A stretch of 57,829 nucleotides of DNA from an uncultured Gammaproteobacteria bacterium. GTDB taxonomy: Bacteria; Pseudomonadota; Gammaproteobacteria; Nitrosococcales; Methylophagaceae. Each line of letters opens with the position of its first letter. Within the stretch, counting starts at the first letter, position 1. The DNA lies in assembly GCA_913042265.1 (NCBI GenBank), contig CAJWKF010000005.1, positions 1 through 57,829 on the forward strand, read 5' to 3'. The notes under the pieces were generated by a model. It was not told the DNA's origin. It saw only the letters and a program-made list of their open reading frames with translations, and searched no databases. A program made the position numbers and the translations under genes. This document shows positions 13,739 to 15,281 of this stretch, one piece after another.

Positions 13739-14341
13739 TTAGGCAGCATATGTAAATGGTGCTGATAAACCTACGGTTTCAGACTGATGCCAATTAATTC
13801 CATTGTCATTATATGTAACGGATTTGGACTTACTTATCGTCACGGGTTCACTTGGTGATACAGCTAGGGGGTGGTTAGATATTTTAACTTCCCCACCATC
13901 CTCACCTTCTATTTCTTGCATGTTATTTTCCGCAAAACTTCCAACTTTCAAGTAGTGGTTCCGTTCTTTCTGGCTAAATTCAATCGGTACTTGTTTTACG
14001 CTCATTAGTTCGCCAACTAGGCCAGCTATAACGGCTAAGTGGCCGCCGTGCTCTCCGCCCCATAATGCCGATATGGCATCTTTTTGTGCCTCTGTGGCGC
14101 GCTCATCAATATAGAGTGCGAGCCTCCAGTTACCGTCGGTTAGGGAGCCGGGTGAATGAAGCCAAGCAGAGACATTTAAATTATTCAATTCAACACCATC
14201 TAAGTGACCCTTCTCTATGTGCCAACCGACAAGGGCCTCACAAAATCCTTCGGTGGGCGGGGCTAAAAATATGCAAGGGCAAACTGCGTTACAGTTGCAC
14301 GATTCAAAGTATTGTCCAGTAACTTTCCAATTGTCTGACAT
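13739..14341 (-). CDS. DUF1326 protein with CxC-x3-CPC cysteine cluster
   Basis: The 200-residue protein has no assigned function. The N-terminus holds a tight cysteine cluster, SCNCNAVCPC (Cys15, 17, 21, 23) plus Cys34, the hallmark of DUF1326 and a likely metal site. The rest is a beta-rich domain. I set the start at the ATG at 14341: an in-frame ATG lies four codons earlier, but the sequence in between contains GGAGG placed 5 bases before the inner ATG, an ideal ribosome binding site. It is divergent from a DUF2182 membrane protein; the two families are frequently neighbours, which suggests a joint function. Confidence 0.8.
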   Translation of the reverse strand: MSDNWKVTGQYFESCNCNAVCPCIFLAPPTEGFCEALVGWHIEKGHLDGVELNNLNVSAWLHSPGSLTDGNWRLALYIDERATEAQKDAISALWGGEHGGHLAVIAGLVGELMSVKQVPIEFSQKERNHYLKVGSFAENNMQEIEGEDGGEVKISNHPLAVSPSEPVTISKSKSVTYNDNGINWHQSETVGLSAPFTYAA

Positions 14342-14374
14342 TCCAACCTCCATACGGTTGTTAGTAATAATCTA

Positions 14375-14396
14375 GTGTAGTAAAATTAATTTACAC
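14375..14396. promoter_or_regulatory. Operator-like inverted repeat between DUF1326 and DUF2182 genes
   Basis: Two 5-base arms, GTGTA and TACAC, are separated by 12 AT-rich bases near the middle of the 115-base divergent spacer. The position would suit one regulator controlling both genes. No regulator is known or encoded alongside, so this is a candidate only. Confidence 0.3.
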
Positions 14397-14456
14397 TTAA
14401 TATATTTATACTCGCTAACTCTTATAAATCATAAATCTTATCCTACATAATTAATC

Positions 14457-15281
14457 ATGCTGAATCAAGACAATCAAATTATATCGACGCCTAAAGAGAA
14501 AATAGTCCTTTCTTTGCGTGATCGCTTGATTGTTTATGGTGGAGTATTTCTAATTATAGTTACAGCTTGGTCCTATATGCTTTATATGGGGTGGGCGATG
14601 AATAATATGCATCTTGTTGATATGTGGATGCCCCCCAATACTGGTAGTGAATCATGGCACATTTATGACTTTTATATGCTATTTGTTATGTGGTTTGTGA
14701 TGATGATGGCAATGATGATGCCTTCTGTTACACCAATGGTTCTCATGTTCACCATAGTTAACAAGGGAAAACAGAACAAAGGTCTACCATACAGTCCTAC
14801 ATTTATATTTTTAAGTGGCTATCTAGTGGCTTGGGCTTTATTTAGTATCGTAGCCTCAGCAATACAATACCCTTTGCACGAAAGCGGTCTTCTCAATCCT
14901 ATGATGAACAGCAGGAGCTATTTGTTTAGCGGCAGTATTTTAATAATTGCAGGGTTATATCAATGGACTCCTCTTAAGGAGGCCTGTCTCAGTAAATGTC
15001 GAAGTCCATTGAGTTTTTTAATGACATCATGGCAGGAGGGCCACATAGGCGCGCTTAAGTTAGGTGTGCACCATGGACTTTATTGTGTTGGTTGCTGCTG
15101 GGCACTAATGATGGTGTTATTTTCTGTCGGAGTTATGAATATGCTCTGGGTTTTTCTTATTACCGCCTTTGTACTTTTAGAAAAGCTTGGACCAACTACA
15201 TCTGTTTATTTAAGGTTTATAACTGGCTTACTACTTATTGTTTGGGGCTCTTATTGGATATCTTTACACCACTGGCAATAA
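14457..15281 (+). CDS. DUF2182 integral membrane protein
   Basis: The 274-residue protein has about six membrane helices and all the family landmarks: MWFVMMMAMMMPSVTPM (residues 78-94), GLYQWTPLKEACLSKCRSP with Cys177 and Cys181, and the cysteine motif YCVGCCWALMM with Cys210, 213 and 214. The many Met and Cys residues within membrane helices suggest a transition metal, perhaps copper, though this has not been shown here. It is divergent from the DUF1326 gene. No ribosome binding site is obvious before the ATG. Its role is unknown. Confidence 0.82.
   Translation: MLNQDNQIISTPKEKIVLSLRDRLIVYGGVFLIIVTAWSYMLYMGWAMNNMHLVDMWMPPNTGSESWHIYDFYMLFVMWFVMMMAMMMPSVTPMVLMFTIVNKGKQNKGLPYSPTFIFLSGYLVAWALFSIVASAIQYPLHESGLLNPMMNSRSYLFSGSILIIAGLYQWTPLKEACLSKCRSPLSFLMTSWQEGHIGALKLGVHHGLYCVGCCWALMMVLFSVGVMNMLWVFLITAFVLLEKLGPTTSVYLRFITGLLLIVWGSYWISLHHWQ

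Follow-up and report, generated by a model that had tools for sequence, protein, structure and literature searches.

The window, that is, the whole 57,829-nt stretch of DNA analysed here, carries a divergent gene pair from the families DUF1326 and DUF2182 (Table 1). Both open reading frames lie where the original prediction had placed them and contain the motifs it had read, CxC-x3-CPC in DUF1326 and CxxCC, CxxxC and an intramembrane Met run in DUF2182. Both proteins belong to their families, with 180.5 bits against a Pfam gathering score of 25 for DUF1326 (PF07040) and 218.2 bits against 28.7 for DUF2182 (PF09948, whose Pfam name is now PpoB2); no NCBIfam model matched either of them. No signal peptide was seen in DUF1326, and its true start may be the ATG at 14341, since its relatives start at MSDNW. 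The source genome (G000; 1.18 Mb, 84% complete) holds a single copy of each family, and no relative was found on viral contigs.

Table 1. Features of the DUF1326-DUF2182 locus in the window
Feature	Positions	Strand	Description
DUF1326 gene (PF07040)	13739-14353	minus	204 aa, soluble; E 4.3e-53
DUF1326 five-cysteine cluster C19, C21, C25, C27, C38 (CxCx3CPCx10C)	14240-14299	minus	direct reading
Intergenic region	14354-14456		divergent, 103 bp, A+T rich
DUF2182/PpoB2-family gene (PF09948)	14457-15281	plus	274 aa, polytopic membrane protein; E 1.1e-64
DUF2182 helix 1-helix 2 loop	14595-14660	plus	Met-rich, acidic, predicted outside; 107 sequences
DUF2182 intramembrane Met ladder M78, M82, M83, M86, M87 (helix 2)	14688-14717	plus	each in 103-105 of 107
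DUF2182 C177-x3-C181	14985-14999	plus	positively charged loop, predicted inside; 107 sequences
DUF2182 C210-x2-C213-C214	15084-15098	plus	right after H206, predicted inner end of helix 5

The original prediction had also placed an operator-like repeat between the two genes. The longest inverted-repeat arm in the gap has 7 bases, a length reached by 291 of 1000 first-order random sequences, and the repeat is absent from the seven other divergent pairs compared; an operator at this site was therefore rejected, the repeat being at chance level and not conserved. Around the pairs, no recurrent third gene was found: the commonest Pfam families had 4 matches among the 118 neighbour ORFs scanned out of 210 found (rough gene calls, 25 commonest families listed), and most pairs had no metal gene alongside. 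Thus, the pair itself is the unit. The dienelactone hydrolase gene beside the pair in the window is present at the congener's locus too, while the neighbouring TusA gene was not found there. On the Marinovum algicola plasmid pMaD9 (L140 3695-5086), the pair lies alongside genes for an acyl-CoA synthetase and a DMSP demethylase; its annotation, 'involved in DMSP breakdown', was probably given from position alone. On Cupriavidus pHG1 (L144 4517-4744), a small GDCCVxC (seleno)protein gene is located directly 3' of the pair.

Co-occurrence of DUF1326 and DUF2182 across genomes

The frequent joint occurrence claimed by the original prediction was borne out well beyond chance in the samples for which it was calculated, with p-values that ignore kinship. 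Among the 274 genomes of the class sample, 26 carried both families, none DUF1326 only, 2 DUF2182 only and 246 neither (p 2e-34), one of the two DUF2182-only genomes, G208, having a fragment at a contig edge and the other, G256, a copy linked to tyrosinase. Within 198 genomes from the phylum of G294 (Cryobacterium), the corresponding numbers were 35, 5, 7 and 151 (p 1e-26), so that 35 of 40 DUF1326 genomes carry DUF2182. In 369 genomes of the window's own phylum, DUF1326 was present in 40 and DUF2182 in 47 (two of them below the cut-off), and all 40 DUF1326 genomes were shared, an overlap obtained by reading the two lists side by side. The pair occurs in ~10 to 18% of genomes across the three samples.

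The genes are also adjacent. DUF1326 lies at most 1.5 kb from DUF2182 in 25 of 29 DUF2182 places in the class and 41 of 52 in the phylum of G294. Most often the two genes share a strand, with DUF1326 upstream (17/25 and 25/41, respectively), and the divergent order of the window accounts for 7/25 and 1/41. DUF1326 was inside the locus in 76 of 80 DUF2182 loci from named genomes of Proteobacteria, Acidobacteria, Chloroflexi, Bacteroidetes, Verrucomicrobia, Actinobacteria, Nitrospirae and other phyla; fusions, which the original prediction had proposed to survey together with co-occurrence, were not seen in these 80 loci. Regarding the four loci without it, the genomes of L066, L070 and L077 carry DUF1326 and that of L068 does not; in the genome of L070, one DUF1326 immediately precedes the Met-rich start of a DUF2182 located at a contig end (L191). 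A five-Cys DUF1326 without any DUF2182 occurs in one genome, G375, which speaks against the relay proposed below. Overall, we regard a functional linkage of the two families as nearly certain.

Conservation, topology and predicted structure

The cysteines, on whose conservation the original prediction depended, are near-invariant in both families. In 32 DUF1326 sequences, C19, C21 and C38 are present in all and C25 and C27 in 31 each, and 117 of 120 unique sequences keep all five. Among 107 unique DUF2182 sequences, C177 is found in 105, C181 and C213 in 106, and C210 and C214 in 107, with M82, M86 and M87 in 105 each; H206, M218 and E242 are near-invariant as well.

The charge pattern of the DUF2182 loops in these 107 sequences predicts that the Met-rich loops face the outer side of the membrane and that the N-terminus and the loop bearing the cysteines lie on the inner side. 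Mean K+R contents are 2.63 (N-terminus), 3.57, 4.07 and 1.61 for the segments predicted inside, and 0.96, 0.60 and 0.00 for the loops predicted outside, the two larger of which have means of 4.81 and 1.77 Met. The helix 1-helix 2 loop, with 4.81 Met and 0.96 K+R, has a mean of 2.36 D+E, and the C177/C181 loop, with 4.07 K+R, has 1.57 D+E. The predicted model of DUF2182 (pLDDT 91.0) consists mainly of long helices, about 7 in number. No solved homologue was found by sequence, and no match of Z >= 8 was obtained among 391 PDB chains, a result that does not show a new fold; hence no transport mechanism can be borrowed from a known structure.

For DUF1326, the predicted model (pLDDT 95.2) shares the barrel fold of the acetoacetate decarboxylase superfamily, with 162 of 204 residues aligned, rmsd 3.5, Z 11.5 and sequence identity of 5-11%; the top 12 rows have Z 10.4-11.5 and the next row 8.2. 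Searches by sequence for solved homologues returned three weak non-specific matches (E 0.37-0.84). In the predicted secondary structure, C19 closes strand 1 and C38 opens strand 2, so the five cysteines are predicted to share one hairpin, at one barrel end. The superfamily is recognized by a conserved Schiff-base lysine. DUF1326 differs from it in having the five-cysteine hairpin instead: at the level of sequence, none of the positions with 80% or more conservation across the 32 sequences is a Lys, His or Glu, and the conserved positions are the five Cys plus Trp, Pro, Gly, Asp, Ala, Gln and aliphatic positions.

DUF2182 copies without DUF1326

Nineteen DUF2182 rows had no DUF1326 nearby, meaning none within the stretch read, and 14 of them adjoin tyrosinase, DUF899 or csoR/copA. 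Eight are linked to tyrosinase (L173, L174, L181, L182 and L185-L187 with DUF7868, and L151 by annotation) and four to DUF899 (L171, L172, L175, L178), and two, on mycobacterial plasmids (L147, L148), are divergent from csoR and adjoin DUF1490 and a copper P-type ATPase. The other five comprise two haloarchaeal plasmids (L150, L152), L154, L176 and L179. Absence of DUF1326 from the whole genome was established for G640, G698, G598, G682, G493, G482, G256, G274 and G281; DUF1326 lies elsewhere in the genome in G808 and G747, and a cysteine-less DUF1326 elsewhere in G404 and G425, while for the six plasmid rows absence refers to the plasmid stretch read. Excluded from the count were copies near contig ends (L066, L068, L070, L077, L177, L183, L184), fragments (L057, L059, L007, L158, L180, L190), unlinked copies with all five cysteines (L042/L188, L056/L189), duplicates of L185-L187 (L058, L156, L157) and L143, with a truncated DUF1326. 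The last, on a Leptolyngbya plasmid, is an unannotated shortened reading frame immediately 5' of DUF2182 (L143 3372-3746).

Of the 108 rows with DUF1326 nearby, among which the window counts twice, 106 have all five DUF2182 cysteines, versus 2 of the 19 without, L154 and L176 keeping them though DUF1326 is not nearby. All 19 retain M82, M86 and M87, and thus the ladder has a constant core and the variation falls on the inner cysteines. Position 213 is S, T or A in 8/8 tyrosinase-linked copies and S in 2/2 csoR-linked copies, and position 177 is R, R, R and H in the four DUF899-linked copies (L171, L172, L175 and L178, respectively). Besides DUF1326 and tyrosinase, DUF899 next to a C177-less DUF2182 makes a third type of soluble partner.

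A tree of 86 rows groups four tyrosinase-linked copies into a single clade with support 100, whose branch has a length of 2.73 changes per site; the window DUF2182 lies outside this clade. Controlling for phylogeny, the association between cysteines and partner comes down to 4 tree changes and 4 independent pairs; ~2 of the pairs agree and 2 show no difference, and the sign test is not significant; the association is a clade-level pattern. Conversely, one or more cysteines have been lost in 5 of 6 DUF1326 copies from genomes where no five-Cys DUF2182 was found (L196-L199 and L214; L195 is the exception), a seventh place, the fragment G341, having been left out. Among these loci, L196, L197 and L198 carry DUF1326 relatives without the five-cysteine cluster, and 2 of the 3 genomes also encode a tyrosinase-linked DUF2182. 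On a Sulfitobacter plasmid (L154 3212-5472), a five-Cys DUF2182 without DUF1326 is flanked by a DsbB-family gene and lgt.

Exported variants

A Tat-type signal was recognized on 6 of 108 unique DUF1326 (L061, L062, L067, L011, L030, L031), with L191 as a seventh; the signals were judged by eye, five of 11 flagged DUF1326 being deemed spurious. Such copies would therefore lie outside the membrane. Beside L030, L031, L062 and L067, the outer loop of the adjoining DUF2182 has 9-20 Met against a median of 4, and since L062, L030, L031 and L070 form one clade, the combination of signal and Met-rich loop is probably a single event. A second DUF1326 is encoded elsewhere in G142, G255 and G292, and the copies read (L025, L019, L192) have no signal. 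This suggests that DUF1326-type proteins are able to serve either membrane face, and the Tat-signal copies are what fits least neatly into a purely inward model. A Tat-type DUF1326 beside a DUF2182 with a long Met-rich loop is found at L191, L193, L194, L062 and L067, with a second DUF1326 in three of the genomes, and the L194 outer loop contains a tandem Met-Asn-Met-Asp-Lys-Pro-like repeat.

Comparison with known copper proteins

The original prediction held that neither family had a known function. In the literature searched, this still applies to DUF1326; it does not apply to DUF2182, whose family includes PpoB2 (COG5486, PF09948) of Marinomonas mediterranea, a membrane protein reported to supply copper to tyrosinase (PMC2855505). 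PpoB2 is encoded in an operon with tyrosinase and the window DUF2182 is paired with DUF1326 instead; the eight tyrosinase-linked copies also differ from the latter in having no adjoining DUF1326 and a replaced Cys213. Judging by its operon, PpoB2 probably belongs to the tyrosinase-linked clade, which is represented here by other copies. Because that branch is distant and lacks DUF1326, the PpoB2 evidence applies to the window pair only in part. Tyrosinase (PF00264) had no match in the source genome (84% complete) or its congener G002 (99%), and it was found in 3 of 26 pair genomes (p 0.14), on other contigs than the pair; tyrosinase as a general client was rejected.

Ctr-type copper importers have three helices, with Met in the membrane, Met-rich loops outside and thiols inside. 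DUF2182 would work alike, though with about seven predicted helices; its only Pfam match is PF09948, and Ctr was not among the structure matches listed, which is compatible with kinship. Cytosolic Cu(I) chaperones and thiolate storage proteins resemble DUF1326 in their clustered cysteines, the likely metal site, but differ from it in predicted fold and in its dedicated membrane partner.

A possible soft-metal relay

A soft-metal role such as copper, which the original prediction had drawn from the Cys and Met ligands, is still the best reading, both kinds of residue being conserved. We propose that the pair is a two-protein relay for a soft metal, most likely Cu(I), running from the Met ladder through the membrane Cys cluster to the five-Cys DUF1326, and we give this proposal even chances. 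Linkage of the two families, the lack of a recurrent third gene, the charge pattern, the copper contexts and the cysteine patterns on both sides speak for it; the scarcity of metal genes beside the pairs, the few events behind the association between cysteines and partner, G375, the Tat-signal copies and the five-Cys copies L154 and L176 speak against it. DUF2182 would sit in the inner membrane and gather metal with its Met-rich outside loops, the Met ladder of helix 2 would conduct it through the membrane, and the inner-face cluster (C177, C181, C210, C213, C214) would pass it to soluble DUF1326. The analysis shows linkage, adjacency, conservation, a charge-based topology and lineage-specific neighbours; copper as the metal, inward flow and direct transfer between the two cysteine clusters are inferred. 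Handling of a soft metal by the two families is very likely and copper is the probable metal, while inward flow to DUF1326 is about evenly balanced; these gradings, like that of the linkage, are judgements and not computed values. The copper contexts of the family are the reported transfer from PpoB2 to tyrosinase, the two mycobacterial plasmids and Rhodococcus, where a heavy-metal P-type ATPase and a protein with a heavy-metal-associated domain are encoded close to a DUF1326-DUF2182 pair.

Alternatively, metal transfer could end at DUF1326, which would then be no carrier but a client, either a metalloenzyme or a protein holding a metal cluster; DUF2182 would load its acetoacetate-decarboxylase-like barrel in the way that PpoB2 reportedly loads tyrosinase. 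The gene adjoining DUF2182 in the tyrosinase branch does encode the copper enzyme itself, and the DUF1326 barrel is enzyme-like; however, the lack of a conserved Lys, His or Glu and an all-thiolate site, of the sort that usually stores or passes metal, make this reading unlikely. Detoxification, in which an excess of Cu(I) or a different soft metal is sequestered by cytosolic DUF1326 and exported by DUF2182, would suit the mycobacterial csoR and copper-ATPase context and the metal-ATPase of Rhodococcus. We consider it quite unlikely, given that the pairs have no recurrent metal-resistance neighbours, that the Pfam scan of DUF2182 returned no ATPase domain and that PpoB2, the single studied relative, is reported to supply copper to an enzyme (PMC2855505).

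The CxxCC and Cx3C motifs of DUF2182 might also move electrons or disulfides across the membrane, with DUF1326 as redox partner. One DUF2182 copy has a DsbB-family gene on one side and lgt on the other, with a glutaredoxin nearby, and four DUF1326-free copies adjoin DUF899, two also with a weak AhpC/TSA profile match. Yet a thiol-redox role, which we see as very improbable, would leave the near-invariant Met ladder, the Met-rich outer loops and the csoR and tyrosinase contexts unexplained.

The metal relay may extend beyond this pair: DUF2182 would be the membrane donor and its soluble partner would differ by lineage (DUF1326, tyrosinase or DUF899), with the cysteine pattern following the partner. 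More tentatively than for the relay itself, we suggest that DUF2182 is a general copper donor with exchangeable partners (DUF1326, tyrosinase plus DUF7868, DUF899), told apart by a partner code in the inner cysteines (five Cys for DUF1326, no Cys213 for tyrosinase, no Cys177 for DUF899), and that the DUF1326 proteins, with their acetoacetate-decarboxylase-like barrel, form a new and widely distributed class of Cu(I)-thiolate proteins in the cytosol.

Although the pair is widespread across many phyla, our literature search found no paper naming DUF1326, DUF2182, PF07040, PF09948 or COG5588, while a control with other DUF names was productive. If the relay is true, it would account for the movement of copper to a cytosolic target in many bacteria, and 'copper chaperone' as a Pfam name, spanning a deep split in the family, would call for caution. 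The orphan family DUF1326 would gain a testable job, and the cysteine pattern of DUF2182 offers single-residue tests.
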